Below, in pieces: positions 24,822-53,211 of a stretch of 64,000 nt of DNA; positions within the stretch are counted from its first letter, which is position 1, and the number at the start of each line of letters is the position of its first letter. The notes under the pieces were generated by a model. That model saw only the letters and a list, made by a program, of their open reading frames with translations. It was not told where the DNA came from and did not search any database. The stretch spans positions 1-64,000 of the forward strand of contig JBBHKE010000768.1 in NCBI GenBank assembly GCA_037447655.1, in the 5' to 3' direction. The stretch is from Zygnema cylindricum. Taxonomy: Eukaryota; Streptophyta; Zygnematophyceae; Zygnematales; Zygnemataceae. The translations under genes and the position numbers were made by a program.

Positions 24822-26601
24822 CACTGACTTGCCAGACTTTGACCTAATGTAATTAATAGACCAAAATCCAGCTCTACCTGAACTAGATTGCTACAAACAG
24901 GTAACAGCATAATCTAAAGTGCAATCCGAAAGTTTACTTGGCAATTCCCAATGTACCCCCATTAGGGCTAGCGGAAGCTGGTACTACGTTACGGAACTTC
25001 AATCTTTGAGACTGTGGAACTTTGTCGTCCGACCTCCGTTAATCACGAAGTTTAGTGCGTTCCGCTCAGTTTAGGAAATAAAAGGATCTAGTCCGGCCTT
25101 GTGCACTCATTTCCCCGTACTTTGAGAACCGTACAAGGGAGAAAGGGCCCTGGAATCCTTAAGGGTATAAAGGTGTGACTAAAAAGCACACGAGCTTGAC
25201 AGCTGTCGAGCGTGCCTGAGTAATGTGGGGGAAGGGCCCAAAACCCGGAGCCGCCGGCATCGGAGTCCTGCAAATAACCCTTTAATGCTAATGCTTCCAA
25301 GAATAATGATCATGCCCATTGCTAAACCACATCTCTCCTATAGACATGCATGAAAAGATAGGAGAGACTCACGGACCATATATAAGAATGATTGCATGGG
25401 AAGGCGAAAGGATCTCCCCTCCCCCTTCCTTTCCCATTTGGCCGGGAAAAGGGATTTGGGTTCTCGGTAATCAGGTCGGTGCCCCAATCTCCCCCCCTCT
25501 TAGTCAGCCGTGACGAAGAAAAGGAAATAATTACCCGCTCAATTCACAGTTCCTGCAGAACCATGGACTATGGGATGGAGAGCGTGATTCCCATGAGGAG
25601 GGGAGACAAGATGGGTGCCAACATTGACCACACTGATTGCAGACCAAGATGTCGTGCGGCGGGGAGGGCAGGTTGCATGACGAAGAACTGCAAGGAGGAT
25701 CGGCAAAGTAAGTGAAGTGGAAAGTGGGTTCGTCTTCCAATCCTCGGAGATGGCAAGGGGCCACATTGATATGGTTTTTTTTAATTATTCTACCATCTTT
25801 CCCCTCTAAAGTCAGAACTCCCTTGTTTGAGACTTCCACCACTTTCAAAATCACCCGCCCGGCAGAAATGTCAAGCGTGTTTTTTTTCTGTTGCATTCGA
25901 TATACAAAGTCTCCCGGCATAAATCGTCGTTGTCTGGGCACATAATCTCCGTTCTGGCGCTGGGAATACCACAAATGATCCTGGTGTTGTACCGCCTGTA
26001 AATTCCCAATAGCAAGAGGCGTCTCTCGGTGGAAAATTTTGGCGCGATCGGCGATCAGTTTCTCGACAGTCCCATTGTCATCCATTTCCAAGAGGACCAC
26101 AGCTTGGGCTGAGGCAGCTCGAGCAGAATGGGATGTCGTCCGAATAAAATGAAGTAAGGGCTATAGGAGTGGAGAGAAACCTATCTGCTGAATCGGTATC
26201 CCATGGCAATCCTGTTGTTCTTTGGTCTAAAATAGACCGCAGTAGCCACCCAAACTATCATGCAAAAAGCTAAGCGAAGCTAGGCGAATGAACAATCATC
26301 TGAAATGCATCCTCCATTTAACATACAACAACTAAGGTTTGATGGAAAAATCAACATTAACAAACCTTAGGACAACATCTAAGGTTTGATGGAATAATCA
26401 ACATAAGCAAACCCTAGGACAAATGCATAAACAATGCATATAAAACATATATAAAAAAACATAAATATATAATAACAAACAAATGAATTACACATAAATA
26501 AAAGTATAATCAAATAATCATTTTATCATTCAAAGTGCATGACCTAATCGACAACCCTAAAATACTACATCTTTGGTCCCCACTTTACTAACCAGCATTG
26601 A
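24822..26601. repeat. 1.78-kb duplicated segment, copy 1
   Basis: Apparently identical to 29948-31727 at a constant offset of 5126 bp. It contains the truncated Gypsy LTR (24822-25486, minus), the Gypsy polypurine tract near 25489-25502, the integrase C-terminus with PHD finger (25531-26212, minus) and the end of an F LTR (26213-26601). Both flanks diverge sharply at the boundaries. Confidence 0.88.
25531..26212 (-). pseudogene. Gypsy integrase C-terminus with PHD-type finger, copy 1
   Basis: Upstream part (26212-26100) matches the end of the integrase core, with SPYFILFGRHPI, but a 1-base deletion relative to 33157-33290 breaks the frame. The open 189-codon part has an integrase C-terminal SH3-like region (RRFMPGDFVYRMQQKKNTLD, GRVILKVVE, GKDGRIIKKN). 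It ends in a C4HC3 cysteine/histidine array: C-x4-C, x11, CNQC, x4, H-x2-C, then WFCRNC. That spacing, including the W two before the last pair, fits a PHD finger. The stop is followed within about 45 bases by a polypurine tract and LTR. No reverse transcriptase is attached to this copy. Confidence 0.82.
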
Positions 26602-26822
26602 TTATTAATTCCTAACAAAGCTCATTCCTATATATACACTTGTGAGCTGTCAATGAATTGCTACATGTCAAAATAGCCAACGTACCTTCCACTAAGTAGT
26701 ATTACATCATGAGAACCTATTACGACAAATAATCCTAACTGTAAGTGTACACCTGAAAGTCAACCAATCATAAGCGTACACTTGTCGGCAAGTACGACAA
26801 CACACAAATTAAACTGCCGAAA
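26213..26822 (-). repeat. F-family LTR end, minus orientation, truncated by gap
   Basis: Minus-strand LTR ending ...AAGAACAACA at 26213. Up to 26601 it is identical to 31339-31727; beyond that it is still homologous but visibly diverged. It contains a two-copy 47-bp repeat (CTAAGGTTTGATGGA words, 26327-26420). Inverse to the LTR at 24420-24821. Confidence 0.75.
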
Positions 26823-28435: not shown

Positions 28436-28865
28436 ATGTCTACTAATGGCTCTGTTCTTGCTAGTGCAAGTGTGACTCCTAGTGGGAGTGGATCACAACC
28501 AAGTCAAAATGCCCATGATATACAACAAGTTATGGGCCCACCGCCCAAATTGCCTATTTTTGATGGAACCGACTCCTTATATTGGGAAGATATGTTGAGC
28601 TCATATTTCGAAGAGAGGAACTTCTCACCCATTGTGGAAGGAACTGCTGATGAGACAACGCCGGATTTGAGAAAGAAGAATCTCCACTGCCTCAATGTCT
28701 TGAAACTGTTAATGACAAAAGACTTGGTAATGTCGTATCTTCAGATGAAAAAAACCTCTGAAGTTTTGTTCAGTGTACGTGCTATGTATGTCCAGCTAGA
28801 TGTTATTGTCCAAACTAACGTAGCCACTCAAATTTTTGAATTTAAGTATTGTGGAGGTATGTCGA
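28436..28865 (+). pseudogene. Copia gag N-terminal fragment
   Basis: An open 147-codon frame begins MSTNGSVLASASVTPSGSGS, includes QQVMGPPPKLPIFDGTDSLY overlapping a PBS-like AGTTATGGGCCCACC, and continues with ETTPDLRKKNLHCLNVLKLL, typical of Copia gag. It is truncated at about 28865 where Gypsy LTR sequence begins, so only the first third of gag survives. Confidence 0.82.
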
Positions 28866-29142
28866 CCATGCCTGAGTAATGTAGGGGAAGGGCCCAAAAC
28901 TCAGAGCTCCCGGCATCGGAGTCCTGCAAATAACCCCCAAATGCGAATGCTTCCCAGAATAATGATAATGCTCACTGCTGAACCACATCCCTCCCATAGA
29001 CATGCATGCAAAGATAGGAGAGACTCACTGACCAGGAATAAGAATGATTGCATTGGAAGGCAAAAGGATCTCCCCTACCCCTTCCTTTCCCATTTGGCCG
29101 GGGAAAGGGATTCGGGTTCTCGCTAATCGGGTCAGTGCCCCA
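28866..29142 (-). repeat. Gypsy LTR 5' fragment, diverged copy
   Basis: Minus-strand reading starts TGGGGCACTGACC at 29142 and matches the first ~275 bases of the Gypsy LTR (25486-25213 or 30612-30340) with noticeable divergence. It abuts the complete LTR end to end. Confidence 0.7.
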
Positions 29143-29146
29143 ATTT

Positions 29147-30612
29147 TACTTATCCACGGGAAGTCTATCGCATTTGTTCCCTCAAAACCCACTGTTTCGA
29201 TTATAAGGAAGTTGCAGTTTTACTCCGGGAAGCTCACGCCGAAGCAAAAGAAACTACGAGCGAATACACAAATGCACTACCACGTTGACATATAGAAATA
29301 AATAGGAATGGTTGTTTCACATTTAACAATATCACCTTGACCACAGAAATAAAATATAAGATGGAAGATATAAAAGATGGCGAAGCAAGCTTAACATACC
29401 CCGGCAATTTACGATGACAAAGAGAAAAAGGCGAACTCTCCCCCCCCGATGGTAGTGTAAATAGGTATGGTACTCCTTTAACCTTCGGTGTCCGCAGCTC
29501 GGAACCGACCAGAATCTTCTCAATTTCAAGTAGCGAAAAATCCAAAAATCACCTAAAGGGCCGATAGTGCCAACTACCAGCTCGAACTTTGATTCCCACA
29601 ATAGACAGATCCGCAACAAAGATGGAAATAGAGTCAGACAAAACAGAGATTCTTCCAAAAGAAAGCTTGTTGGATTTTCTGCGGGTTTTCACAAGAGACA
29701 GTACTAAAAAGCAACCTGTCTCCTTTGACCCCAAATGCCTTATACACCAAAGTTTGTCAAAATGCAGGTCTAAAAGTCAAAGCTACGCTATTAGCCAATG
29801 AACAACAAGCAAATGTAATGGAACTGACACAAGACAAATTGATCCGTCCTACACTCGGGGCCAAAAGTTTTACTCCGGACTGCGGCTAGATCCGCGGCCA
29901 GAAGTTATTATTTGATCCACTATTATAAGACAAAGTCTTGAAAAGGACACTGACTTGCCAGACTTTGACCTAATGTAATTAATAGACCAAAATCCAGCTC
30001 TACCTGAACTAGATTGCTACAAACAGGTAACAGCATAATCTAAAGTGCAATCCGAAAGTTTACTTGGCAATTCCCAATGTACCCCCATTAGGGCTAGCGG
30101 AAGCTGGTACTACGTTACGGAACTTCAATCTTTGAGACTGTGGAACTTTGTCGTCCGACCTCCGTTAATCACGAAGTTTAGTGCGTTCCGCTCAGTTTAG
30201 GAAATAAAAGGATCTAGTCCGGCCTTGTGCACTCATTTCCCCGTACTTTGAGAACCGTACAAGGGAGAAAGGGCCCTGGAATCCTTAAGGGTATAAAGGT
30301 GTGACTAAAAAGCACACGAGCTTGACAGCTGTCGAGCGTGCCTGAGTAATGTGGGGGAAGGGCCCAAAACCCGGAGCCGCCGGCATCGGAGTCCTGCAAA
30401 TAACCCTTTAATGCTAATGCTTCCAAGAATAATGATCATGCCCATTGCTAAACCACATCTCTCCTATAGACATGCATGAAAAGATAGGAGAGACTCACGG
30501 ACCATATATAAGAATGATTGCATGGGAAGGCGAAAGGATCTCCCCTCCCCCTTCCTTTCCCATTTGGCCGGGAAAAGGGATTTGGGTTCTCGGTAATCAG
30601 GTCGGTGCCCCA
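29147..30612 (-). repeat. 3' LTR of the Gypsy element
   Basis: Starts TGGGGCACCGACC right after a polypurine tract (AAGAGGGGGGAGA on the minus strand) and ends ...GTGGATAAGTA. The last ~840 bases match 44888-45723 closely. Length is about 1.47 kb. Confidence 0.72.
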
Positions 30613-31727
30613 ATCTCCCCCCCTCTTAGTCAGCCGTGACGAAGAAAAGGAAATAATTACCCGCTCAATTCACAGTTCCTGCAGAACCATGGACTATGGG
30701 ATGGAGAGCGTGATTCCCATGAGGAGGGGAGACAAGATGGGTGCCAACATTGACCACACTGATTGCAGACCAAGATGTCGTGCGGCGGGGAGGGCAGGTT
30801 GCATGACGAAGAACTGCAAGGAGGATCGGCAAAGTAAGTGAAGTGGAAAGTGGGTTCGTCTTCCAATCCTCGGAGATGGCAAGGGGCCACATTGATATGG
30901 TTTTTTTTAATTATTCTACCATCTTTCCCCTCTAAAGTCAGAACTCCCTTGTTTGAGACTTCCACCACTTTCAAAATCACCCGCCCGGCAGAAATGTCAA
31001 GCGTGTTTTTTTTCTGTTGCATTCGATATACAAAGTCTCCCGGCATAAATCGTCGTTGTCTGGGCACATAATCTCCGTTCTGGCGCTGGGAATACCACAA
31101 ATGATCCTGGTGTTGTACCGCCTGTAAATTCCCAATAGCAAGAGGCGTCTCTCGGTGGAAAATTTTGGCGCGATCGGCGATCAGTTTCTCGACAGTCCCA
31201 TTGTCATCCATTTCCAAGAGGACCACAGCTTGGGCTGAGGCAGCTCGAGCAGAATGGGATGTCGTCCGAATAAAATGAAGTAAGGGCTATAGGAGTGGAG
31301 AGAAACCTATCTGCTGAATCGGTATCCCATGGCAATCCTGTTGTTCTTTGGTCTAAAATAGACCGCAGTAGCCACCCAAACTATCATGCAAAAAGCTAAG
31401 CGAAGCTAGGCGAATGAACAATCATCTGAAATGCATCCTCCATTTAACATACAACAACTAAGGTTTGATGGAAAAATCAACATTAACAAACCTTAGGACA
31501 ACATCTAAGGTTTGATGGAATAATCAACATAAGCAAACCCTAGGACAAATGCATAAACAATGCATATAAAACATATATAAAAAAACATAAATATATAATA
31601 ACAAACAAATGAATTACACATAAATAAAAGTATAATCAAATAATCATTTTATCATTCAAAGTGCATGACCTAATCGACAACCCTAAAATACTACATCTTT
31701 GGTCCCCACTTTACTAACCAGCATTGA
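29948..31727. repeat. 1.78-kb duplicated segment, copy 2
   Basis: Apparently identical partner of 24822-26601. Here the sequence runs smoothly into the rest of the Gypsy LTR on the left and of the F LTR on the right, so this copy is the likely source. Confidence 0.88.
30657..31338 (-). pseudogene. Gypsy integrase C-terminus with PHD-type finger, copy 2
   Basis: Identical at the protein level to the copy at 25531-26212. It has the SH3-like integrase tail, then a C4HC3 array (C-x4-C, CNQC, H-x2-C, WFCRNC) in the last ~40 residues, and the stop close before the polypurine tract. Known chromoviruses carry a chromodomain in this position and use it to target integration to modified histones. A PHD finger here would plausibly act the same way on H3 tails (inference). 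A 1-base deletion near 31240 separates it from the integrase core frame. Confidence 0.84.
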
Positions 31728-33156
31728 TGATTAATTTCGTACAAAGCTCATTCCTATGTATACACTTGTGAGCTGTCAACGAATCACTAAGTGTCAAAAT
31801 AACCAACATAAATTATGTAACTGTAATTAAGTCCTATTTAACCATAATAACCAATTACTAAGAAAAAAAACTAATCGTAAGCGTACACCTGAAAGTCAAG
31901 CAATCGTAAGCGTACACTTGTCTGCAAATACGACACATAAATTAAAGTGTCGATATCCTCATTAATCACGTAAAATATAACTATTTTAATCAACACTAAA
32001 TCATTAGTTCGCAATAAACAAAATATTGATGTTTCAAATAATTACACCGACGCATCCACAAATCCGCGTCATAAGTGACAACTTGCTTAGTCACTTGTCC
32101 ATAAGTCCACGTAGTAACGTGTCATCACATACGTACGACCCACTTGATAGTACATCCAAAAATAGCGCGAACCACTTGCCGAAGTGAAATCGTACTTTCC
32201 AAATCTGTTCGTACGGAAATCGTGTTGTTTGCAATAAGTGCAACTGTCGCAAATAAAATATCTATACCCTCGCGTCACGTACTTTTCAATAAATATCGCC
32301 TGTCGCATTTTGTTTTGTACGCCTACGTACATTTTTACACATTTCGAATATTAAACGTCGGATCGCTTCGCGATTCACCGTCCATTTCTTATCACATTTC
32401 GCGCCACTCAATTACTCCATTAATTTTACGTGTACATTTAATTCCCCAATCCAGAAATCCTTTCGAACCTCCACAATATATCAGATAATTACATACGTAC
32501 GCAAACATGCGTACGCATATACGAAACTTAATCTTCCAAAAACAACACTCCCCCGAAGATTTAGTTTGGTAACTCCATGAAGCCACGTCATCATCTGTCA
32601 CTACTATAACCCCCTGCTGTCTCCTTCATCTGAATCTGCCAAAATACCTCCGATATAATTTGCAATTTTGTTCCTTCACTGCTTCCGCTGTCTCCATAAA
32701 CCTTCCAAATTTCATAATACACATATATATATATATTCATTTTCTGATTACAACAAAAATTTCTATTTTCTCATCAATATCTAAATCCGATTCTACTTCC
32801 CACAATTCTATCTCAAGTCAACTAAAATTAAAACTAAAGGATCACAATAAGTATATAACCCAACACAAAATTTATACCTCAACCATATCAAATCTAGATT
32901 TCAATATTTTTTTTTCTTCTTTCGATTTAATAATCCAATCTCAAAATTTCCCACAAAAAATACATAAATAAAAAATCTATTTTCCCAAAAAACAATTCTA
33001 CCGCAATAAAAAACTTCCACCAAAAATCTCACATTCCTCAAACTAACACAACAATTTCCAAATATAAAAACTTTTCAAATTTTCTAAATTCCTCAAATTC
33101 TTACTTAATCCCACAAAAATAAAAACAGTAAAAATAAATAAGAATAGACCTGTGGG
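31339..33156 (-). mobile_element. F-family Copia 3' end (3' UTR plus LTR) inside Gypsy integrase
   Basis: On the minus strand: a T-rich untranslated stretch (33156-32570), the polypurine tract TTCGGGGGAG, then a complete LTR from TGTTGTTTTTGGAAG (32556) to AAGAACAACA (31339). No coding region remains. The plus strand of 32600-33150 is strikingly poor in G. The flanking Gypsy integrase is duplicated over ~110 bp across the insertion, too long for a target duplication, so this junction probably formed by recombination. Confidence 0.68.
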
Positions 33157-33960
33157 ATGACCACAGCTTGAGCCAAGGCAGCCCCAAGCACAATGGGATG
33201 TCGTCCGAATAAAATGAAGTAAGGGCTATTGGAGTGGAGAAAAGCCTATCTGCTGAGTCAGTATCCCATGGCAATCCTAGGCACCCTTTTGTCCCACTCT
33301 CCCAAGTCCTCTTCAACTGCATATATCTGTAGTGACCGCTTCACTGTCTGTACGCACCTTTCGGGCAAACCGTCGGCTTGAGGGTGGTCGCGATTTGTAA
33401 GTCGATGGTCGATGAGGCATTTCTCCAAGAGATTGGTAAATTCTCCGGCGAATTCCGATCCCTAGTCTGTTAGAACCTCTACTGACGCTCCAAATTGTGT
33501 CAGGACCCTCTGCAAGAAGGCGTCGGCAATGGACTAGGACTCCTTTCGGGGCAGAACCACAAGCTCTATCCATTTTGAGAAATGCTCAATCATGACTAGA
33601 ACGAAACGATTCTTACGTCTGCTAGTCGGAAGAGGTCCCAGAAGATCCAAAGACCACCGATAAAAAATCCCCCGGATAGGAAGAGAATGCAGCTCAGTCC
33701 CGCCCTTTTTGTCAAAAAAGGCCTTAACTTGATCGCAAGAAGAGCAAGTCAGTACAATTCGGTTGACTTAGGCCCGCAACGTGTGCCACCAATAAGAACC
33801 TGTAACTAGGGAAGTGGTCCGCTTCTACCTTAAGTGTCCACATTGATTATATAGATTAGTAATCAGAGTTTCTCGAATTGATGGAGGAGGAACCACTTTC
33901 CTCGTACCGTCTGACCATTTGGAGAGTAGAACACCTCGATCCCATTTATACGCCGCCATC
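33157..33960 (-). pseudogene. Gypsy integrase core
   Basis: Minus strand shows a degraded HHCC zinc region (NQCGHLR, GSYWWHTLRA, CSSCDQVKAFF), then the catalytic domain start FYRWSLDLLGPLPTSRRKNRF, the EHFSKWIELVVLPRKES block, VLTD followed by a stop in place of the usual residue, GSEFAGEF, HPQADGLPERCVQTVKRSL and the FILFGRHPI block. Several stops (near 33463, 33521, 33770, 33843) inactivate it. Integrase would have inserted cDNA into the host genome. Confidence 0.85.
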
Positions 33961-33965
33961 CGGGT

Positions 33966-34396
33966 CTAAACTCGGGACAATTGAACTCCAACCAAATGGG
34001 GAAGAGGCGATCCCCGCAGGATGGATTGGAGAGCCTCAGAGTCGTTCCAGATGTCTTTCCATCCGGCTCCTATGGGTGCCTGCCCCTCAACATCTACTCC
34101 AAAAGTGGACAATGCCCCCCCAGATGGAGGAAGCCAAATTAAGGCGGAGGATGCTCGAATAAGTCCCAAACTGATTTCGGGGTCTTTGTCATTCTGAGCC
34201 TCTGTGGAATCGAGTGTGGAAGGATCAGGGTTTCGGCTAAGTCCGTCGGCATGCCCATGGATTTCCCCTGCCCGGTGAACAATGCTGAAATCATATTCCT
34301 GCAGGATAAGCACCCATCTGGCGAGTTTGCCGGTCAACTTACTATTCTCCATGATCCATTTCAGGGGTTGGTGGTCGGTGATCAGTGTGAAACGGA
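33966..34396 (-). pseudogene. Gypsy RNase H, C-terminal half
   Basis: Resumes at IRFTLITDHQPLKWIMENSK just after the Copia gag frame and continues with LTGKLARWVLILQEYDFSIV and HRAGEIHGHADGLSRNPD, the last two being RNase H hallmarks. The frame is fused in-register with the preceding Copia gag codons. About a dozen residues are missing between the two RNase H halves. Confidence 0.88.
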
Positions 34397-35480
34397 TCTG
34401 TTTCGAAGGAATATCCTTCTCCTCTAGGTTCTCGTCAAAAAGAAGCTCCCCATCCTCGTCAGAGGACTCATCCTCTTCAGTCTCTACTTTCACTTGTGTA
34501 ACTACAAGTGCCTTCCTCTTCCCTCCGAAAAAACCCCCTTCGCGGTTCTCTTAGAGCCTCAGCTCCGACAGCTTGGTGTAATCTACTATGAAGTTTCCCA
34601 ACTTTTTGGAAAAATGAGAAAGACCCTTTAGAGGCCTTGGCCCTCCACTATGATATTTTTCCCCTTTGAATACCTATACGGCCTCTTCGAATCCTTCCCC
34701 CATCGGTCTGTTCTCGTAGCTAGAGCTTGAACGTTTCTTCCTCCTTTCCTTATCTCAATCGTGTTCCCCTAAGTTAGTATCATCCAGACCAATGTGTTCC
34801 ACTTCCAAAAATTGTCATCCATTTCTTGCACTCAGTTCACTATTTTCTTATACTAATAGGGCAATTTCATGATGAGCGTATTGACTTTCAACTTCATTTT
34901 GCCTGTCCCCCCGGCACTCTCCATCTCCATATACAAACAAGAGAGATCATTAAGGTAGTGTAACATTTTCCCTCCCTTGTAAGTATAGTTCCCTAACCTT
35001 TGTTAAACCAGCTGTAGTTTCTGAATGGTACCAGCTCTATAGATCTCCACTAAAGTCTCCCACAACTCCGTTGCTTTAAAAATTTGAAGGTGAGAGGTTT
35101 TTAAGGATTTGATGAGATGGCTCATAATGAAATGCCTGGCATTCATTTTTGTGTATTTCGGCATTTGAATATCGTTTTCCTCAGTCTTCACGGCCGTCGC
35201 TCCAAGTGCCGAGCCGATAGGAGAAAGAGGTGTCTCCTTCCCTTTCCCCTTTTCAGACACACTACTGTCTCCACAATCTGCCACCTCTGTTGGGGCAGAT
35301 GTTGCTCCAAAAAACTTCACTCTATCAAACCTTGGTGGAGTTCCCTAAAGTGGACGTTTCACTCGTCTGCTGACAACACCACAATATCGTTTTTCACACA
35401 AAACGCGTGTAATCATGGCTTCCCAATAAATGAACCCCAATCCGTTGACGATGGGCACCCTAAAGGGTGGGCCCATAACC
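34397..35480 (-). pseudogene. Copia gag fragment (element G) nested in Gypsy RNase H
   Basis: Minus-strand gag begins at the PBS GGTTATGGGCCCACC (about 35472 leftward, MGPPFRVPI-type start), contains NARHFIMSHLIKSLKTSHLQ and LWETLVEIYRAGTIQKLQ (35320-35003), and ends in the acidic SSDEDGELLFDENLEEKDIP tail shared with element C (ESEDEDDELLLDEELE). It then fuses directly to Gypsy RNase H at about 34397. Protease, integrase and RT are absent. Confidence 0.8.
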
Positions 35481-36130
35481 TACAACATTGTGTCCCCCAT
35501 TAGACTACAAAATTCAGGAAGCTTCTAGGCAATTTTTTACTAACCCACTTTCAAGTAGAACCACTGCTACCGAAGCAGGCAAATAGATTGTTTGACTACA
35601 CCCCTGAGCAGTCTGGTCTCCCCTGACTTCGCAGTGAAAAGAATCATAGAATACGCCCAACAAAGCGATAAGTTATAAAGTGGCAAAGATGCCTAAATAT
35701 ATACAAGCTCATTGGGAGAGAGGCGGCTACCTCCTCAATCTTCTAAGTCCTAAACCCCTCTCACAACCCCTATCTACTGATGTACAAACCAATCAGAGGA
35801 TTGTATAATACTGAAAGGTAATTTGGGCGGTGTACTTTTTGTACGGTCTGTGTACGACTCGGCCATTTAGTGGACGCCTGTCTTCTTCAGACTCGCCCTC
35901 ATGCTCTCCAAGATTTCCTGCTTTCCAATGTTTTTTTGCCACGTGGTGCTAGGTCATATCATGCTTGAAAACCTCCAAAGCGCCCATTCCGAGATCTTTG
36001 CGATGATGCGTGCCGTCGGATCCAAATTGAATTTCAATGCTAGCCGTTGAAAATAGTTGTCCGATAAATTTGTTTTGTGCAAGTTCACGGTCGCACTGTC
36101 ATCTAACTAGTTTGTATGTTCTAATTTGGT
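35481..36130 (-). repeat. LTR of Copia fragment G
   Basis: Minus-strand LTR related to E and C (TTTCCTGAATTTTGTAGTC, GAGCTTGTATATA, TCAGTAGATAGG blocks) and ending just before the gag PBS. Its upstream limit near 36130 is approximate. Confidence 0.62.
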
Positions 36131-36149
36131 TAATCGGATTACTGAACTT

Positions 36150-36916
36150 TTACATATTCAAATTGTAATCATACCCCATGTACTTTAACAAACTTCAACG
36201 ACAGACCGACTAAAGTTGACGGCTATGCGTTGCTCTGCCGTTCAGATTACGGGATACATAGATCCGGTACGGATGACAGTACGGATTACGAATCAATACC
36301 GCGCATTTGTTTCGGAAGTGAAATAAATACCGCGCATGTATTTATTACGGCTAAGATTAAATCTGAATTTAATCGGACGGCCGGAATTAGCGCCGAGATC
36401 GCGGAGGGAGATTTCGGCGGTTTGTGGCCATCGCCACATCGGATGACACGTGGCGAAATTCCGTTGGATTGTAGAATCTCCGGAGATTATGGCACCGAAT
36501 CCGGATTTGACATGTGTCGACATTTAGGCCATTTCGTACAATGTCCGTACTGAAAGTACACCGGCGGCTGTACTTTTGCGTACGGAACTCAATTCTGATT
36601 GGTTCCTTACATCAGTAGATAGAGTCTGTGAGAGAGATAGGACTTAGAAAAATTAGAAGATAGGACCCTCTCTCCCAGAGAGCTTCTGTACAAAAGGTCA
36701 ACTTTAACCCTCCATAACTTACTGCTCAGGGGAGCAAATTCAGAGATTCTTTTTGCTACTGACTCAGGGGAGTCTTGCCTTCACAGGAGTGGAGGTTGTC
36801 AGGGTTTTTGTCTGCCAGGGTGGCAGTTATTTTTGCTTAAACACAAAGGGGTCAGGATTATCCTAGAGGCTTCTTGGAAGCTGTCCACTCTGAGGACTTA
36901 TGGAGGTCTCAGAGTC
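36150..36916 (+). repeat. C-family LTR, truncated, opposite orientation
   Basis: Plus-strand sequence from TTACGGGATACATAGATCCGG (about 36242) to GGAGGTCTCAGAGT (36916) matches the C LTR (52520-53205). It directly abuts the Gypsy RNase H codons EFLAAVWV. With the minus-oriented G LTR it forms an inverted pair. Confidence 0.78.
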
Positions 36917-37280
36917 ACACCCACACAGCTGCTAAAAACTCCCCATGGTAACTGTTATAATTCCCCTCAGCTCGGTTGTTGCTCTGGCTAGCGTAAGCCA
37001 CCACATACGCGGCTCCGGCGTCGTCAACTTGAGCCAAAACCGCTCCCAATCCAAACCTGCTCCAATTAGTGTAAAGAAGGAAAGGTCTTTGGTGATCAAG
37101 CATCCGGAGCAGTGGGTGCTGCTTCAAGGCATCTTTCAAGCACTGGAAAGCGATCTGCTGTTCCTCGGTCCACAACCATTCTTGATCTTTCCGCAATAGT
37201 TTATTTAGGGGCTGGGCATGACTACTGAACCCAGGAATAAACCGGTGATAGTAGTTGGCCAGGCCGAGGAAGGTGCGCAA
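36915..37280 (-). pseudogene. Gypsy RT thumb and RNase H, N-terminal half
   Basis: An open frame with MRTFLGLANYYHRFIPGFSS, the LRKDQEWLWTEEQQIAFQCL connection region, then LLYTNWSRFGLGAVLAQ and NYNSYHGEFLAAVWV. The first RNase H catalytic Asp expected in LLYTD is Asn here. The frame stops where the nested LTR begins. Confidence 0.88.
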
Positions 37281-38082
37281 GACAGAAATGTCCTGCGAGG
37301 AGGAAGAGCGTCAAGGGCTGTAAGCTTAACCATATGGGGGCGTACTGTTCCGGGAGTCACTTGATGTTCGTGGTAAATGATTTTCTGCACCCTAAAAATA
37401 CCCTTGCCCGGGTGACATTTCAAGTCCGCTGCTTGAAGGGCCCGGAGAACGATCTGGATATGCTTCTGATGTTCTTCAAAGGTCTAAGAGAATATTATCA
37501 CATCGTCGATGTAGCACCGAGCATAATCGATTCCTCGGAGCGTTTCGTCCATGGCCCGTTGGAACTTGGCTGGTGCATTCTTCATTCCGAAAGGCATATA
37601 AATCCACTCATAAAGTCTGGATCCGACCTAGAATGTCGTTCTCTCCTGGTGTTTTGGTTCCATGGCAATCTGGTGGAATCCAGTCTTCATATCTAGTGTG
37701 GAGAAAATGGTGGCTCCGCCAAGAGAGGCAAAAATCTCCTCCGTGGCTGGCATTAGATAACGTTCAGGAATGGTGGCCGTGATCAACATGCGGTAATCCA
37801 CACACATTCGAAAATCTACTGTTTTCCCAGAGGAATCCTTCTTAGGAGGGAGGACTGTGGGGGAAGCAAACCCATAGAGTCCTGTGCTTTCCTGAACAAA
37901 CCCGGCGTCTACCAAAGTTTGGACCTTTGCGGTGATAAACTTCTTCTCCTTGAAGTTGAGAGGATACTGTTTCTGCCAAACAGTTGCAGTTTCGTCGATC
38001 AAGTCAATACGAAAGGGTGTTCCTTTGTATCTTTCGACATCTGTTTCTAACCAAGAGAAAACCTGATTGTTCTTGGCCAAGA
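37281..38082 (-). pseudogene. Gypsy reverse transcriptase
   Basis: Frame 38080-37628 contains VDAGFVQESTGLYGFASPTV, VLPPKKDSSGKTVDFRMCVDYR, and FSTLDMKTGFHQIAMEP, the conserved fingers and palm blocks of Ty3/Gypsy RT. After a frameshift the palm continues (YMPFGMKNAPAKFQRAMDE) to the catalytic YIDD at 37513-37502, followed by VIIFS and EHQKHIQIVLRALQ. RT lies in exactly the same frame as the upstream methyltransferase. Frameshifts and a stop near 37460 inactivate it. Confidence 0.92.
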
Positions 38083-38455
38083 GTTCCGTTAGCTGTTCTT
38101 TCTGCTGAGGGTCCAGCTCCTCCCCTAGAGTCTAGTCCATCTTTCTCGGCTCAATTGCGGCCCAGGCTTCCAATGGTCTCCCCTAGAGGTTGATGTCGAA
38201 TTCTAGCCCACCTTTTGGATCGGCCTCTACTTCTCCGGATAATACTTTACTGCTGACAACGTCCGCTAAGCAGTCCCTTTCTGAGCAACCGTTCCCCCCC
38301 ACTGAAGGAACCATTGGGTGTAGAATTTTTCTCTTCTGTCTCCCCCCCTCAAGTTGCAAAGTGGCTTGCATGGACAACAATTTTGGAGCTTGAAGGTAAC
38401 CTTTGCGGGAATCTGGAGAATAGAGAGTGGAATATGCAAGAGCGTGTTTGGTAAT

Positions 38456-39429
38456 CTATGTAATGGCATTCAAATCCATGCTCTGTCCGATTAAGCTCCA
38501 CCTTTGTAGGTCGGAAATACCTGGTGCGGCTGTGGTTCCCAGATGGAATCCCATGGCTTGTTCTCGTTCCGAAATTGTTGGTGTCGTCCAAATTCCTGCC
38601 TTGCTGTCAAAAATCATTCCTGCTACTCCTTTTCTGTAGGCGTGGCTGTGAGGAAAAGAGACCAACGTGGGGAGGGCTCGCCGAGGAGATCCGGGTGCGT
38701 TGCATTGGAAGAAAGGAGGATGATCCGGTTTGGTTACAGGTGTGGCTATTCTTTGTTCCCCAAGGATTTGCTGTACTGAAATCTGAGGTCCGGGGGTCTG
38801 TGTCTCCAACAGTTGCCGGAGGACTGGAAGCAGAATCATATTGGTCCAATATGCCCGAAGTCTGTGTGCTCGAGATCCCATTTGAGCAGCGTCAAAAATT
38901 AAAGGACCTCCTAAAGTCGTGGTTACTTGTTTCCAGCTGTCTGCAACCTGTTTTCGTTTATCATCCCCCGCGTGGACGTTCTCGAGAATATACCCCAGTG
39001 GTGTTTCTTGGACCTGCTAAATCCACGAGATTAATGTAATCATTTGGTAGAAGGAGCCACTTCTGCGGTCTTGATGCCGTTTTCTTTGTCTTGCGAGGGA
39101 GTATCCCTGACAAGGCCATCCCGCAACAACCAGATCAATTCTACCCAGATTTGCTAAACGGGGTGCCATAATACTATCTACGTTCTGGGGAAGACTCCGG
39201 TGAGCTTTGGAAATGGAAAACACTGGAAGCTGCTGAGGATATAGGCGGTGCAGTTGATGAAGGCGATGTTGGCTGACAGCTCGTGCTTCCGGTGAATTCT
39301 CCACTGCTGTATAGGACTCCACCCGATATCTTGCTTTCAAAACTGCTTCCACATCGCAACTGATTCCTGAAAATAAAGATAAAATCCGAAGTCCGGTGTC
39401 TGGCACTTCAATGACACCACTTGTCTATT
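38456..39429 (-). pseudogene. C5-cytosine DNA methyltransferase domain within Gypsy Pol
   Basis: Reads as a compact C5 methyltransferase of about 320 residues. Motif I is LRILSLFSGIS (SAM binding). Motif IV is VVAGWPCQGYS, with the catalytic Cys codon at 39112-39110. Motif VI is YILENV. A motif VIII-like GSRAHRLRAYW follows, and motif IX/X is TISEREQAMGFHLG...RWSLIGQS. The ERxxxMGF and LxGxS spacing resembles DNMT3/DRM-type enzymes. One amber stop at 39019-39017 and another at 38458-38456 interrupt an otherwise continuous frame. That frame runs through a linker (38455-38183) into RT, so the domain is part of Pol between protease and RT. The enzyme would methylate cytosine in DNA. Catalytic residues are intact; only the stops disable it. 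It is too short for host DNMT1/CMT accessory domains. Confidence 0.9.
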
Positions 39430-39609: not shown

Positions 39610-40188
39610 CTATGTGATATCTGTAGAACTATCAAACATTTCGGCCGGAGAGGATGTAGAATACACTAGGTAACAACCAGAAACATGAACATTTGTTTTC
39701 CCCCGGTTCCATAAATCCAAAGGAACTACCACTTTGGTTCCTTCGGGATTTCCAGGGTCTTGTACGGTGCATTGTTCCTTCCAAACACCTAAACTAATAT
39801 TCATCCGGGTCCATGTAGCCATTCCCAACAAGATTTCAAACTGATTCCCTTCTACCACTAAGAAAGGAAGCGCAATTTTCACCTTCTGTCTTACATCATC
39901 GGAGAATTCAATGTCCATGGCTTTGATGATCCCATGGACTGGCTAGCTGCCGCTGCTTACCGTGCTTAAGTAGATGTTACTTCGGCATATTTGAGGTCTG
40001 AGTTCCTCCGGCATTTTCTGCAATTTTGAAGTGGTGATAAGGTTTGGAAGTACTCCGGTGTCTACCACAGCGTCTTGGTACCCGTTGTACCCATTAAGTT
40101 TGAATTTGCCCGTCCTGTTCAGAATGAGGGTTACGAACAAGGTTTTGTAGTCCCTATCAACTAGAGGGGTTTTAGGCTCTGTGGACAA
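39610..40188 (-). pseudogene. Gypsy aspartic protease
   Basis: Two collinear segments of one frame separated by a stop at 39943. The active-site motif AVVDTGVLPNLIT (Asp codon near 40062-40060) is followed by the C-terminal FLVVEGNQFEILLGMATWTR, equivalent to the ILGMDWL block of retropepsins. It would cleave the Gag-Pol polyprotein. The downstream methyltransferase is in another frame, so at least one frameshift lies between 39610 and 39430. Confidence 0.82.
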
Positions 40189-40189
40189 A

Positions 40190-43100
40190 TATACCGCCGT
40201 GGGTTGTGTCGCCCGGTCGACTTTGTCTTCTCCAGAATAAATTTCTTCTTCAAGGCTTGAATGAGGATATCTTCGGGCAGATTATTAGAGGAAGCGAGGG
40301 TCTTCACATCAGTCAATGCATATGGCATAAAGTGCCTAACTAGCATGACAACAAGCTTGGAGGAAGGGAGTAGGGCTCTTGGGGATGAAGCCAACGAATC
40401 TGGTTCCCGATCCTGTTCATTTCCCTCCTTGTCATCACTTTCAAAATCGGAATCGGGCATTGGTGGAGTTTTGGGTGCCTCCTCGTCCGGACGTTCGGCC
40501 ATGAACCGCTCAAACCAATCGTGAGTGCTATGTTTGTCCTCTTCAAGTGATTTCTTCTCTCACAGTAGTTTCTCGCTCTTGTAATTTTCCAAACCGGGAG
40601 GCAGTTTCTGCTTAGGAGGAAGAGGAGGAGGTTGAGTGGGCTTGATCCCAAGACCTGTGTCATTGTTTAGCACTATTCCCCGGGGCATGAAAGATAAACG
40701 CCCGGTGGCCTTCCGGTTGTGGTCTTTTTGGCTTGTTTTCTGCCTGTCTCTCCTCTGATTAGAAGTTGAGGAGTGGAGTTGTCTACGTCCATCTCTTGCT
40801 GCCACATTCCAGGCTCCGTGAAGAAAATTGCTTGCATGGTGGGCATTTGGGGGTTCCAAATCCCAACCCATCAAATCATCGTCGTTAGCACCCGCTGTGC
40901 TTTCAAGCTCAAGCTCCGCTAGCTTCTGTAGTAATTCCTATTTTTGTTGTTGGAGTTGTTGCGTTGCTATAAGAGGAGCAGGCCAGGATGACGATTCCAA
41001 ACAAAGTGCCGCTAATTTTGAAGCCATGGCAGCCATCTGTTGACTTTGCTGTTGGATTTTGATCTCCGGTGTGAGTCTCGCGGGAGCACCCGTTGCTCGT
41101 TTCTGAGTTTTTGGTGTAGGCAACACTGGGCGCCCCCAAGGGCAAAAGAGTTGTAGGGGAAGAGGGTTAACGAAAGTCTCTCCTTCGCCGTGAACAGTGC
41201 GAATTGCATCATTTCTTTCGGAATCCCGTTCTTCCGGAAACATTCCCCCTCCTTGTGCCCCATAAAACCACAGGCCTCACACTCTTGACCCTCGGTGGTA
41301 TACTTGCTTTGAATCTCGTTGGAGATCTGAGCATCTTCAAACTTTGGCAGTTTGATTTGCCGCAGTTGAGACTGGGACATTATCGAAGTTTCGCTTCGGG
41401 GAGTGGGGCGGTAATTATCCTTTGTGACTAGTGTTCTTTCCTCCCCCTCAGCTCCTTTGAGCCTTTCTTGCTGCTGCTTCTGGCTCCTTTCAGAATGCTC
41501 TACTTCTCATTCCTTCAGCCGGAGGGCTAGCTCCGATTTGAGTTTCCTGCTATAGCGTTTCAATCCATGTCCTGGTTGTTGGCAATTTAGGCAATTGTAC
41601 ATAATTACCCTTTCGTCTGCCCCCATTGCGGGTTCGGGTCCGTTGTCCGTAACTTGCTTTCCTTTAAGATTCCACAAAGCTTGAAGTTCCGCATGTTCTT
41701 CCCCACTTAAGGAAGTTTCCCTGGCGAATCGTGCAAAATTCGCTCTTGCCTTGCCGGTCACGGCCTTTTCCCTCGCCTCACTGTGAATGAAGTGGTGCAT
41801 AACTTCATGGCCACTAGTGAGATTTCTTTGGTAGAGGAATTTATGTCCTGGATTGCTTGTCCTGTAATCCTCTTATCCAAGGCAGTCTGCCTTGTCGTTC
41901 CAAAGGAACTACAAACAACAATGAAATACTTTGTGGCTATTGCAGGAAGATTAATGGTCGACAACTTAGTTTTCTTGCACAGTCTCGATAGACGGTTCAA
42001 GAGAGTTTAGGGTCTTGTTCTTCAAGCATCGCAATTCCGTGAATTCCTTGATGGGCGATTTGTTCCTCTCGGTGTAGAGGAGTCGCTAGATATTCAGAAG
42101 GGTGGTGTAAGGGGTGGGATAGGCCACCATGCTTGTCGCTGCCCGATCTGCTTGAATAGCTTGCAGCCGGTTAACATAGGCCTTTCCTTGGGCCTGCAAC
42201 ATCATATCATCGGTGAATGTGGCTATCAAAAGGGTGGTCGCGGCTGCAGCCAAGTCAACCTCCGATTGTAAGACGGCCGCATCAAGAGCTAGATCAGATA
42301 TTTTGATGCTAGGAGCCATCAAAAGAGGTTGACGCTCCTTATAGTGTGCTAATGCCCCTCGAAAGAGGTAGTTGACCATCATAGGAAAGAGGGTGGTCTC
42401 GAAGTCATCCGGCATTGCTCCTCCCCTGTACTTGTTTTTTTCTGATTGGGTGAACGATATCCATAACAGTTCGAAATCTGAGAATGCGATCCCTGAGATG
42501 TCCCTTGTAACTATACGAATGTCCCCAATTTCTTTCTCTTCTTCCGTTGATTGGGTGAACTGAGAAAAGGAAAGGCCGATGGGACTGACGAACTGTGCCG
42601 GCGAAGTAACTCCTTTGTCCTCTTCCTCGAGATTGGAACCGCCTTCTCCTCCGGTAGGAGGTGATGCTCCGTGAGGTGTGGATACTCCTCCCGCAGAGGA
42701 AGTACCAGCGCCTGAAAGGATGGTAGGAGGAAAGGAAATCCTCACGGGGAGAACTCCAGGCCCCCTGGGTGAAGAGGGTATCTACGGTTGAAGACCTGTT
42801 TGGCCTGGTGTAGTAGAAGGAAGGGCCCATTCCCCTTCTTCCACTCCTTGATATCCCCGAGAATACCTCTCGTCCTTAAGAACTGTCTCCTCTAATGGAA
42901 TGTGGATCCGAGGTCTGTTCAAAGGAGGATTTCAGGAGAGGGATGGAGAAGGAGACGACGAAGGCCAGTTCTGAGGAGAAGGAGTTCATCTTTGGAAAAG
43001 GGTCTGTTTTTGAGACCGTCTTTGGGAGGTTTTAGGAGGAGGAGTTCCGCACCTAGAGGATGGGGAACGACGGTGAGGAGGAGAGAAGACGTCGGACTTG

Positions 43101-44760
43101 TAGGGTAAACTCAGCGGACCTGGTGACCCACGGTCTGCTCCAATAAGGGAAACGGTAGGTGAGGGAGAATAGATGGGAACGTCTCAAGGCTTGGCTGCAG
43201 GATCTTGGGAGTGAGAGGTAGGAGGATGAGGAGGAGAAGGAGGAGGACCAAGGGACAGTCTGGGTGGAGGCGAAGGAGGTGTGGGCGGTCTCAAGGGGAT
43301 GTGAATTCTTTCATCTAGTCGTAACTGCACTATGGCCTCAACAGCTGAAGAAACCTCCACCGAAATAAAAGTAGGCTCTTCCCGTGGAGCCGCGGGGAGT
43401 TCAGATGGTGAATCTGCACCCAAACCCCCAATATTAGGTCTTATGTTTGCCCTCTCTTCCCGCTGAAGAGGAGGTTCCTGACTTGTCTCTGAGGAAGGAG
43501 CTTGGGGTTTAGCTTCGGACGGAGGTTCGGTTACTGGTGTTGGAGGGATCCGCCCATTGTGGATCCCACTTGACCTCCGCCGAGCTTCCTGGATGAGGTT
43601 CACTTCCTGCTCCCACAACTTTCCCCTTTCTTCCTCCAAAGCCTCCCAATCTATCGTGAAGGGTCTAGCCCCCGCCGTAGCTTGGCCCTGAGATTTCAAA
43701 ATTTCAACTAGTTCCTTAGCCCTTTCCACTACTCTGGTCAGATCAACTATCCAAACTCCTAGAATTTCTAGATCATTAGTTCAGGTCCTCCATCGCCCCT
43801 CAGATAAATCTTTTTGACTAGTACCTGGAGCCCAAAACTCTCCAATAGGGCGACTTTGAGGCACGGTTGGAGAGGTTGTCTCAATGGGGGTTGAAACGGG
43901 TGTGGGGTAAATTTCTTCCTTGGGAAGAGGGGCAAATCTCCCCTTGCTGTCCCTATGGTCAAACTTCTTCCCTCTAGAAGACTCTCGCACCTCCCTCTCT
44001 CTACCTCCTTCTACTTTACGAGACCGAGAAGTAGTGCGCCCTTAGGAAGGCCTGTTGGCTGCAGTGTCTTGAGAGGAAGATAGAGGAGGGCGAGAGTAGG
44101 AAACCCTCCGGGACCGGTCCGCCACCGAAGGAGAAGAGCTTCTTTTAGAGGAACTGCTCAAGATCTCCACCACTCCCCCCACAAGTCTTACCGGCCTGGC
44201 CCAATCTGCCCGAGCTACTCTCTGCACTAACTCCTTTTTAACCTTCAACTAATGGAGATCGTGAAGAGAAAGAAGTTCCTTGCGACCAGGGCGGCTGGGA
44301 TCCGCCAGAACCGCAGGGTCAATCTGAATTTCGGCCCTGGGAATTTTCGACCTGGTGTGAAGCCCGACCTCGAAAGAGGGCCCAAAGGGGGCTCCCGCTG
44401 AGCTTGTCTCTTTGGTCGAGCTCGGGGCGACACTTCATTTCTTTCCTGAGCTTGTGCCCTTGACTCACTTTTTTCCTCGGCAAAGGCCTTGGCGGCCTCT
44501 GTAAAGGAAGGGAAATGCTCGAAGTGAGGCTAGGAGGGGGTGGAGACAAAGGTTGTGGTTCCGGCTGTTTTGGAGGAGTCTCAACTCTAAGAGGCTCAGT
44601 TATCATTCCCTTGAGAAACTGCTCTATATTTAAAGCTGAGGTGAAAGGAACTGCTTCTTCAGAAACCTATGACTCGTCCTCTTGTGCCACCGCTTCTTGA
44701 TTCCCCGTCTTTTTGGACTGGCCCCGGAGAGATTCTTACCCCCAGCTTCTCCTCCCCCCA
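40190..44760 (-). pseudogene. Gypsy gag region, long and proline-rich
   Basis: A series of broken minus-strand frames. From 5': proline-rich, basic segments (44606-43184) with repeated SPPxSP motifs; a capsid-like segment (42745-42086) with SFSQFTQSTEEEKEIGDIRI and a helical tail; a CCHC-like knuckle NCLNCQQPGHGLKRY whose last Cys is Tyr (41507-41800); and a second knuckle CEACGFMGHKEGEC (41012-41380). An acidic segment (40502-40161) leads to protease. About 4.5 kb is unusually long for gag, and no additional known domain was recognised in it. Confidence 0.68.
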
Positions 44761-44887: not shown

Positions 44888-45723
44888 TACTTATCCACGG
44901 GAAGTCTATCGCATTTGTTCCCTCAAAACCCACTGTTTGGATTATGAGGAAGTTGCAATTTTACTCCGGGAAGCTCACGCCGAAGCAAAAGAAACTACGA
45001 GCGAATACACAAATGCACTACCACGTTGACATATAAAAATAAATAGGAATGGCTGTTTCACATTTAACAATATCACCTTGACCACAGAAATAAAACATAA
45101 AATGTAAGGTATAAAAGATGGCGAAGCAAGCTTAACATACCCCGACAATTTACGATGACAAAGAGAAAAAGGCAAACTCTCCCCCTCGATGGTAGTGTAA
45201 ATAGGTATGGAACTCCCTCAAGCTTCGGTGTTTGCAGCTCGGAACCGACCAGAATCTTCTCAATTTCAAGTAGCGAAAAATCAAAAAATCACCCAAAGGG
45301 CCAATAGTGCCAACTACCAGCCCGAACTTTGATTCCCACAATAGATAGATCCGCAACAAAGATGGCAATAGAGTCAGACAAAACAGAGATTCTTCCAAAA
45401 GAAAGTTGTTGGATTTTTTGCGGGTTTTCACAAGAGACAATACTGAATAGCAACCTGTCTCCTTTGACCCCAAATGCCTTATACACCAAAGTTTGTCAAT
45501 TGCAGGTCCAAAAGTCAAAGCAACGCTACTAACCAATGAATGGCAAGCAAGTGTAATGGAACTGACACAAGATAAATTGATCCGTCCTACACTCGGGGCC
45601 AAAAGCTTTGCTTCGGACTGCGGCTAGATCCGCGGCCGGAAGTTATTATTTGATCCACTATTATAAAACAAAGTCCTGAAAAGGACACTGACTTGCTAGA
45701 CTTTGACCTGATGTAATTAATAA
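44888..45723 (-). repeat. 5' LTR of the Gypsy element, truncated
   Basis: Closely matches 29147-29993, ending ...GTGGATAAGTA on the minus strand before the leader of gag. Its first ~630 bases are missing; the break at 45723 joins directly to a Copia LTR. Confidence 0.8.
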
Positions 45724-46418
45724 ACCACAAGTGCAAATTTACACAAAAATGTGCAAACAGATCTGAAAGAAACTCTCAGTCAAAGATATCAAAATGCTAA
45801 TGCATAATTTGATACAACAAATTCCTAACTTCTGAAATGGTTAAGTCCTACTCTTATACCTAAAAGATCTAACCTTTTGAAAACTAATAGCCACTGACTA
45901 TCCTAACAAAAAGAAGAAGGCATACTAGCCATGCATCCATAATATCTACTTGAGCTAAAGAGGATATATGAATATGTCAAGGTATGTCATAAAGAATGAA
46001 TCTGAACTGAGTCCTTAATAAAAAAAAACACGCCTATGTACACAACAGGGATATGTTACGTCACATTATAATATACAAAGAACGTTGGATAATCATAGAT
46101 GTGGTTCCGATTAACCAGCGTCAGTCGGTAGCAAATCTCTGCCGTCCATCTTTCAAAAGTTTCATCCTAGATGAAACTTTGTGTGACACTTCGGTCTTCC
46201 AATGAATCTAAGTCGTAGAATCGAGTCTTGCGGAGTGTCTCATCTCAGTTTGCCGACGTGTATCTCGCTAATGTGATACATTGTGTACTCTTTCATTGTT
46301 CACTGTCACACTAATTCTGGTACATATTAAACCAAGCTTCCATAAAAAAAACTATGTACTCATAAGACACTTCCCTCACATAGGAGGCTTAGTGAGGACT
46401 AAAGCTTTCCAAACAAAA
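45724..46418 (-). repeat. 3' LTR of Copia element A, truncated
   Basis: Follows the minus-strand polypurine tract CTTTAGGGGAG and starts near TTTTGTTTGGAAAGC. It shares CAAACAGATCTG and AAGGTATGTCA-type blocks with the D LTRs. It is cut at 45724 by the Gypsy LTR. Confidence 0.68.
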
Positions 46419-46678: not shown

Positions 46679-46940
46679 CAGTCTCAGAGCAGCGCAGCTT
46701 CTATACAGACAAAGCAGCGCAGCTGCTATACAGACAGAGCAGCCCAGCTGATATACACCAAAGCAGCTGCTATACAGCAGAGCAACTGCTATACAGCAGT
46801 GCAGCTGCTATACATCAGAGCAGCTGCTATACAGCAGAGCAGCTGCTATACAGCACAGCAGCTGCTATACAGCAGAGCAGCTGCTATACAGCAGAGCAGC
46901 GCTGCAGCAGAGTAGCGCAGCAGCGAAGCTGCAACACAGA
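46679..46940. repeat. Minisatellite of about 18-24 bp in B 5' LTR
   Basis: About twelve units of the type GAGCAGCTGCTATACAGCA, some with an extra GCGCAG. The 3' LTR (51831-51960) has only about half as many, so copy number changed after insertion or during reverse transcription. Open frames across it are repeat artefacts. Confidence 0.88.
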
Positions 46941-52152: not shown

Positions 52153-53211
52153 TATAGAAATTAATGGTACATTTTTAGTATTTTCTAGGTCTAAATAGAA
52201 TATAGAAAGAAGCCGAGGCAGTCTACCTCTAACTTCTCTCTCCAAACTCTCAAACTTGTCGCAGTCACTGAGAAATTGGAGAGGGAGCTAAAGCCATGGC
52301 TACCTAGGCAATCCAGAGGTTTACGGGAAATTTATATAAGTTAAAGGGTTTATTTTATCTAAAATATATATGCCGGCTGCAGGATTTGATCCTTGTACCT
52401 ACCGGCCGGCAGACATCAGATAGCCGGTAGCCTTAGCCGTTAAGTCTAGGACTAGTGTTACGTAGTATATAGTTTGATATTTATTTAAACGAATATGTGT
52501 AGGATTAATCATTTTACTGTAATTTATTACGGGATACATAGATCCGGTAATGTGTAAAGTACGGATTACGATACGGACAGAAAATCAATACCGCGCATTT
52601 ATTTCTTAATTGAAACGAATGTCACACAAGTATTTATTACGGCTACGATTAAATCTTGATTTAATCGGACGGCCGGAATTAGCGCCGAGATCGCGGAAGA
52701 AGATTTCGGCGGTTTGTGGCCATCGCCACATCGGATGACACGTGGCAAAAAAACATTGGATTGTGGAATCTCCGGAGATTATTGCACCGAATCAGGATAT
52801 GACATGTGTCGACATTTAGGCCATGTCGTACAATGTCCGTACCTAAAGTCCAACGGTAGCTGTACTTTTGCGTACGGAAATGTATTCTGATTGGTTCCGT
52901 ACATCAGTAGATAGAGTCTGTGAGAGAGATAGGACTTAGAAAAACTAGAAGATAGGACCCTCTCTCCCAGAGAGCTTCTGTACAAAAGGTCAACTTTGAC
53001 CCTCCATAACTTACTGTTCAGGGGAGGAAATTCAGAGATTCTTTTTGCTATCGACTCAAGGGAGTCTTGCCTTCACAAAGGTGCAGGTGGTCGCGGTTTT
53101 TGTCTCCCAGGGTGGCAGTTTTTTTTGCTAAAACAAAAAGGGGTCAAGATTATCCTAGAGGCTTCTTGGAAGCTATCTACTCTGAGGACTTATAGAGGTC
53201 TCAGAGTTTCA
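52153..53211 (+). repeat. 5' LTR of element C
   Basis: 1059 bp ending GAGTTTCA, directly followed by the PBS. Contains an antisense tRNA-like block near 52371-52450, several CCGTAC words, and a CTCTCTCCCAGAGAGC hairpin shared with the related LTRs. Confidence 0.87.
52371..52450 (-). repeat. tRNA-like block in C 5' LTR
   Basis: On the minus strand a GGATCAAATCC B-box-like word sits near the end of a region with ACCGGCTATCTGATGTCTGC stem-loop potential and a TAACGGCTAAGGC D-arm-like start; terminal GCCGGC motifs can pair. The 3' LTR has the same block at 57091-57170. A fossil tRNA or SINE captured in the LTR is likely. Confidence 0.45.

Follow-up and report, generated by a model that had tools for sequence, protein, structure and literature searches.

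What does a DNA methylation mark do for a genomic parasite? DNA methylation is a main weapon of plants against transposons, and a transposon lineage that holds a methylation enzyme in its own polyprotein poses this question directly. Such an element lies in a stretch of 64,000 nucleotides of Zygnema cylindricum (Streptophyta; assembly GCA_037447655.1, contig JBBHKE010000768.1, positions 1 to 64,000 of the forward strand; hereafter the window), where two direct repeats, 45730-44888 and 29992-29147, enclose it on the minus strand. Its parts follow one another in the order gag, protease (PR), cytosine methyltransferase (MTase), reverse transcriptase (RT), RNase H (split), DDE integrase (split), integrase C-terminal domain and PHD finger (Table 1); PR, RT, RNase H and DDE integrase stand in the order typical of Gypsy elements. 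We consider it likely that this is a dead Ty3/Gypsy copy with a DNMT3-type MTase in Pol between PR and RT and a PHD finger after the integrase, and that it belongs to an old and diverse lineage of green plants and algae.

The methyltransferase domain and its reading frame

The MTase motifs are read in order and in one frame on the minus strand, as a preliminary description of the locus had claimed: LFSGI (motif I), GWPCQG (IV, with the catalytic Cys intact), ENV (VI), GSRAHRLRAYWTN (VIII) and LIGQSMD (X), under the motif numbering that we take to apply. This unpermuted set, with its catalytic Cys, is that of a cytosine-5 MTase. Pfam DNA_methylase matches the first half of the domain alone, above its cut-off (E = 3.7e-7), and nothing in Pfam matches the second half on its own; with a hidden Markov model (HMM) built from the relatives described below, window excluded, the open pieces score 119.4 and 212.7 bits. 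Among solved families the domain is closest to DNMT3 by sequence and by fold, and DNMT1 and CMT chains are absent among the 57 PDB sequence rows and the best 50 fold matches, an absence that falls short of proof. The identity of the domain and of the element is almost certain. Compared with host DNMT3 and DRM enzymes, the domain shares the DNMT3 motif order and fold but has AGWPCQ at the catalytic Cys where they have GGSPCN, and it is fused to Pol, whereas the host companions are PWWP and ADD in animals and DUF3444 in plants, according to the accessible parts of PMC12344493 and PMC6453930.

The in-frame stretch runs from 39424 to 38459, the previously given start at 39429 being out of frame, and lies in the frame of the downstream RT, as had been described. 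Two amber stops had been said to interrupt the domain; the count is right, but only the TAG at 39019-39017 is internal, while that at 38458-38456 lies just beyond motif X, where relatives such as the retrieved protein P0009 continue reading toward the RT. Two further TAGs (38185 and 38134) stand in the same frame between the MTase and the start of the RT at 38131. From 39424 to 37484 the common frame holds six stops, all TAG, and the next is a TAA at 37207. At these six positions the relatives have, by eye, Gln once, Trp three times and Arg once (37486), 38185 not being alignable; C precedes three of the six. This pattern is as expected if cytosines had been lost at methylated CHG sites, six being a small number. 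The MTase also follows the PR, as stated earlier, with the PR pieces (40281-39613) in a different frame, so at least one frameshift must lie between the two.

Relatives and the position of the domain in Pol

Protein searches gave 8, 36 and 133 matches; with the best 120 of the 133, 8 of them already known, this made 156 distinct proteins, most without an organism name. The domain occupies two positions among them, after RNase H or before the integrase (type or group A) and before RT or after PR (type or group B). Since the queries differed between searches, the profile of the 133-match search (8000 candidates scored) included all of P0031 with matches leaning to group A, and the best 120 of these 133 were used, group sizes are no census. 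An MTase HMM built from the 156 matches every one of them, as it should for proteins found by that domain; in 126 the MTase is accompanied by one or more further Pol domains, and 30 show the MTase alone. The full order RT, RNase H, MTase, integrase, integrase C-terminal domain and PHD finger is found in 54 proteins, and a PHD finger in 56 of the 62 that have both RT and integrase. The type B order occurs in 18 (P0006, P0009-P0017, P0019, P0022, P0025, P0029, P0035, P0038, P0040 and P0043; P0018 is not included). PR then MTase within one predicted protein is found in 12 of the 156, and MTase then RT in 8 (P0009, P0010, P0011, P0013, P0014, P0022, P0040 and P0043), the RT being short in P0013 and P0022 and incomplete in P0014. 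The preliminary description had allowed for a one-off host fragment with no other copy in the PR-MTase-RT order; these 12 and 8 proteins contradict that in other genomes.

The named sources of type B are Marchantia polymorpha (7 records, PR upstream of the MTase in all) and Closterium, both streptophytes, and those of type A are two members of the Chlorophyta, Cymbomonas tetramitiformis and Monoraphidium neglectum. Two annotations of M. polymorpha underlie the seven records (one Mp_ and six MARPO_ names), so P0012 may duplicate another of them; the MTase match is split in four of the seven, and RT is present only in P0014, incomplete. Together the liverwort and green-algal relatives indicate a lineage, not a one-off accident, and one as old as the split between liverworts and green algae if inheritance was vertical. 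Because uninterrupted MTase frames exist in M. polymorpha, for example in P0012, the use of the mark is open to experiment in a genetic model.

In an MTase tree of 143 rows, for which 14 of the 156 proteins were too partial (P0006 among them), the branch between groups A and B has an SH-aLRT support of 98. One side holds 121 rows, of which 102 are type A and 19 are of unknown position; the other holds 22, namely 17 type B, four unknown and the window. In all 119 rows whose position is known, position and tree thus agree, and the trees support the earlier suggestion that a place between PR and RT marks a distinct lineage. The RT tree has the same two groups; its deepest fork, which holds the long rows P0040 and P0043, is weak (33), and the window groups with P0009, P0010, P0011 and P0014 at 98; the window RT is 67% identical to that of P0010 over 119 columns. 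In the tree of the short integrase C-terminus, type B is not kept together (2 changes), and the window pairs with P0009 at 99.

Conservation was assessed in the 119 MTase domains that are at least 70% covered and whose position in Pol is known. None of them deviates at the catalytic Cys, at the Glu of motif VI or at the first Arg of motif VIII. Pro before the catalytic Cys is near-universal; it is found in 15 of 17 type B domains, and type A has Glu there (as in GWECQ; examples are P0051, P0054, P0057 and P0062) in 52 of 102 by column and 49 by pattern count, with ENV often replaced by ENT. At 18 motif and target-recognition positions, the window residue is the commonest or second-commonest of each group at all 18.

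Scans of viral and prokaryote contigs gave 62 and 6 loci, with 67 MTase domain matches in the 68; none had a match to RT, RNase H, integrase, integrase C-terminal domain, PHD or PR (1e-4; open reading frames of at least 60 amino acids). We rejected these loci as further members, as they are ordinary phage and bacterial cytosine-5 MTases. Two records carry unexpected labels. P0039 (Cymbomonas) is named 'Methyl-CpG-binding domain-containing protein 9' in the database, with MTase, integrase and PHD by Pfam, and probably owes the name to its PHD finger. P0101, a 'Minisyncoccia bacterium' record from a metagenome-assembled genome, has a Pol with RT, RNase H, MTase, integrase and PHD, and is very probably eukaryotic contamination.

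Capture history and target of the enzyme

A precedent exists in KnitGypsy-Dnmt3 of Klebsormidium nitens, a Dnmt3-related MTase in a long terminal repeat (LTR) Gypsy element reported in 2018 (de Mendoza; PMC5890265, cited here and below from its accessible parts). The likeness lies in a non-rearranged Dnmt3-related MTase within the Gypsy Pol frame of a streptophyte; in the window the MTase frame is that of the RT, and in the relatives single predicted proteins hold both the MTase and other Pol domains. The MTase domain of KnitGypsy-Dnmt3 is under purifying selection (Ka/Ks < 0.2), its repeats are reported as DIRS-like, a reading that the window repeats allow, and the accessible main text does not mention a PHD finger (PMC5890265). 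Where in Pol that MTase lies is not given in the accessible sections. No match named Klebsormidium appeared among our protein matches, most of them without organism name. The preliminary description had cited dinoflagellate cases beside the Klebsormidium one; the latter is indeed a Gypsy element, but the former are DIRS and LINE elements (PMC5890265). Dinoflagellate SymbioDIRS-Dnmt3 also has a Dnmt3-type MTase in a Pol polyprotein, with two coexisting domain orders, but is a DIRS element with a tyrosine recombinase (PMC5890265); the element in the window combines a DDE integrase with a PHD finger. In the window, DDE-type pieces occupy the place of the integrase and no tyrosine recombinase was seen, no dedicated search for one having been made. 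Chromoviruses are Gypsy elements whose integrase carries a chromodomain that steers insertion; the window element resembles them in having a chromatin-reader module after the integrase, and differs in that this reader is a PHD finger (Pfam) and is accompanied by a writer enzyme.

A further-reaching reading, with a probability of roughly 0.4, is that one ancient capture of a DNMT3 gene and a PHD finger, before the streptophyte/chlorophyte split, founded a lineage of reader-writer Gypsy elements, that the MTase moved once, from the PR-RT gap to the gap between RNase H and integrase, that the enzyme was kept because every new copy has to reach a PHD-chosen site pre-methylated, and that the lineage persists in land plants, from which it had been reported missing. 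For its part on the number of captures, a single capture of DNMT3, the odds are somewhat better than even. In a thinned tree rooted with human DNMT3A segments and five phage or bacterial enzymes (P0040 and P0043 dropped, group A reduced to 18 rows), the 34 retrotransposon MTases form one clade against DNMT3A (95/94) and type A forms a clade (100/99); type B as a clade has an approximately unbiased p of 0.37 and may be a stem group to type A. The trees fit one capture followed by a later move within Pol. That single clade speaks against the alternative that related DNMT3 genes were captured twice, once in the PR-RT gap (streptophyte-type) and once between RNase H and integrase (chlorophyte-type). 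So does the PHD finger that follows the integrase in both groups, although group B shows it just in the window and in two rows with long branches. Mean MTase identity between the groups is 0.379 (256 pairs, four group B rows; P0040 and P0043 excluded), below the 0.446 of within-A pairs of like RT identity (1050 of 2016 pairs), and the direction is the same against RNase H (2 group B rows) and integrase (1 group B row). Because the MTases of the two groups have diverged further than their RT, RNase H and integrase would predict, two captures stay in play as a tentative alternative; group B MTases may simply evolve faster, and the comparison is equivocal between one and two captures. A single insertion of a host DNMT gene fragment into a Gypsy element would agree with the one MTase copy in the window, but is scarcely credible given the 156 proteins, the 126 with another Pol domain, the match between position and tree in every placed row and a window domain free of intron-like breaks.

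The analysis establishes the domain and its place in the order of Pol, its conservation and the history that it shares with the element. Under our main reading of the element, the MTase would be made together with RT and integrase, packed with them, and would methylate the double-stranded cDNA ahead of integration; a new copy would then arrive already marked. By analogy with the chromodomains of chromoviruses, the PHD finger on the integrase would bind the histone H3 tail and steer insertion. The gain would likely be lower host toxicity or escape from recognition as foreign unmethylated DNA. That the element's own cDNA is the target has, in our estimate, slightly less than an even chance. DNMT3 enzymes are de novo writers, which would also suit a weapon, antiviral or silencing, turned on DNA viruses, competing transposons or the chromatin of the host; a role against viruses has been proposed (PMC6338049, accessible part), but fusion inside Pol and the logic of packaging would favour cDNA, and we think this use unlikely. 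Methylation of RNA (tRNA primer or genomic RNA) in the manner of DNMT2, suggested for LINE-borne DNMTs (PMC5890265), is improbable here.

Several points weigh against the main reading. Apart from the window, P0040 and P0043 are the sole members of group B with a PHD match; the HMM finds no PHD finger in P0009, and the remaining group B proteins end earlier. The tree outgroups contain no green-plant host DNMT3 genes, which also leaves room for two captures, and an earlier rooted tree (59 rows, six phage or bacterial outgroups, P0040 and P0043 included) placed DNMT3A in an unresolved basal polytomy. PR, MTase, RT, RNase H and integrase are all interrupted in the window copy, and we know of no Gypsy MTase for which action on its cDNA has been demonstrated. 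When tried in yeast, the Klebsormidium Gypsy MTase produced no methylation, an outcome that the authors themselves call inconclusive (PMC5890265). Finally, few CG transitions separate the outer terminal repeats (LTR A pair, 45730-44888 and 29992-29147), and hence this pair bears no trace of element-driven CG methylation.

Transitions in the LTR A pair affect 14 of 54 CHG sites, more than the 20 of 235 CHH sites (p 0.0015), and 4 of 57 CG sites; aligned on the other strand the numbers are 13 CHG, 21 CHH and 4 CG. The LTR B pair has CG transitions at 7 of 19 sites. Among 10 other repeat pairs of the window (some of which overlap in part, two belonging to this element; p values uncorrected), a CHG excess has p < 0.01 in three, and the CG rate exceeds the CHH rate in nine, unlike in the LTR A pair, where it is lower. 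These scars would be read most simply as left by a host that silences its transposons through CG and CHG methylation of the plant type; they say nothing clear on the element's own enzyme. A plant host is also what the ferric-reductase-like exons at 10408-11565 and the nearest named relatives suggest.

A 2019 review, in its accessible part, says that land plants lack such elements; the Marchantia records contradict its wider wording, not its narrower one. The accessible section on the topic in PMC12344493 (2025) names no land-plant case, and five host methyltransferases of Marchantia are given in the accessible part of PMC5784723, these proteins not among them. The literature covered (mainly titles and abstract openings, subscription journals mostly outside) reported neither the elements of Marchantia nor the PHD partner nor the two positions. 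As far as searched, the liverwort members, the two fixed MTase positions and the PHD partner are apparently new, an MTase-bearing Gypsy element itself being known.

Layout of the element and its surroundings

Table 1. Parts of the element, its insertions and its terminal repeats in the window.
Feature	Coordinates	Strand	Basis or remark
5' LTR, part A1 only, 5' part seemingly missing	44888..45730	-	94% identical over 846 columns to 29147-29992
gag region, broken	41015..44248	-	read by eye; weak
PR, two open pieces, stop between	39613..40281	-	own PR HMM, independent E 3.6e-7 and 0.0012
DNMT3-type cytosine-5 DNA MTase domain	38459..39424	-	Pfam, PDB sequence, HMM, fold
RT, MTase frame, one TAG inside	37487..38131	-	Pfam RVT_1 E 9.9e-5, under its cut-off; own HMM 116.8 and 55.1 bits
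RNase H, first part	36918..37310	-	Pfam RT_RNaseH_2 2.3e-24
Foreign transposon sequence interrupting RNase H	34551..36917		RNase H resumes within 34550-33969
RNase H, last part	33969..34550	-	Pfam RT_RNaseH 1.9e-8; own HMM
Integrase (DDE type), zinc-binding and core pieces	33261..33767	-	own integrase HMM 91.5 and 81.8 bits
Insertion (1.8 kb) splitting integrase	31340..33155		flanked by ~120-bp direct repeat of element sequence
Integrase C-terminal domain then PHD finger, single open piece	30660..31286	-	own HMM for the former 1.6e-30; Pfam PHD 2.8e-5, just above cut-off
Polypurine tract AAGAGGGGGGGAG	30615..30627	-	read directly
3' LTR, preferred reading: B1 30330-30614, 338 bp, A2 29147-29992	29147..30614	-	A2 = A1; begins at polypurine tract
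LTR head copy B2, 285 bp, abutting outer end of 3' repeat	28860..29144	-	89% identical to 30330-30614

Repeats A1 and A2 lie about 15.7 kb apart, start to start, and together with the polypurine tract mark an LTR element. The repeats are arranged as A1 ... B1-C-A2-B2. B2 may be the remnant of a tandem LTR or part of a DIRS-like split repeat, and a full LTR B-C-A with a tandem LTR head would explain the arrangement equally well. Neither a TGG-type primer site after the 5' repeat, which seems truncated, nor a target-site duplication was seen by eye. The gag region has no Pfam match and contains two CCHC-type knuckle-like stretches, within 41872-41510 (last Cys changed) and within 41506-41015. 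Part of the insert in RNase H (36246-36915) is 89-90% like 52526-53207 and 57246-57925, and the direct repeat around the integrase insertion (31218-31339 and 33156-33278) is 89% alike.

The 3' end of the element (integrase C-terminal domain, PHD finger and LTR head, 2 kb) occurs twice, at 24822-26820 and 29948-31953, with 97.4% identity overall and 100% over 338 bp, which points to a recent duplication. Rfam and tRNA scans of the window gave no matches. Elsewhere in the window lie a 19-bp tandem repeat array at 46721-46929 and, in the part of the open reading frames scanned, ferric-reductase-like exons (Pfam Ferric_reduct) at 10408-11565, the sole likely host gene identified.
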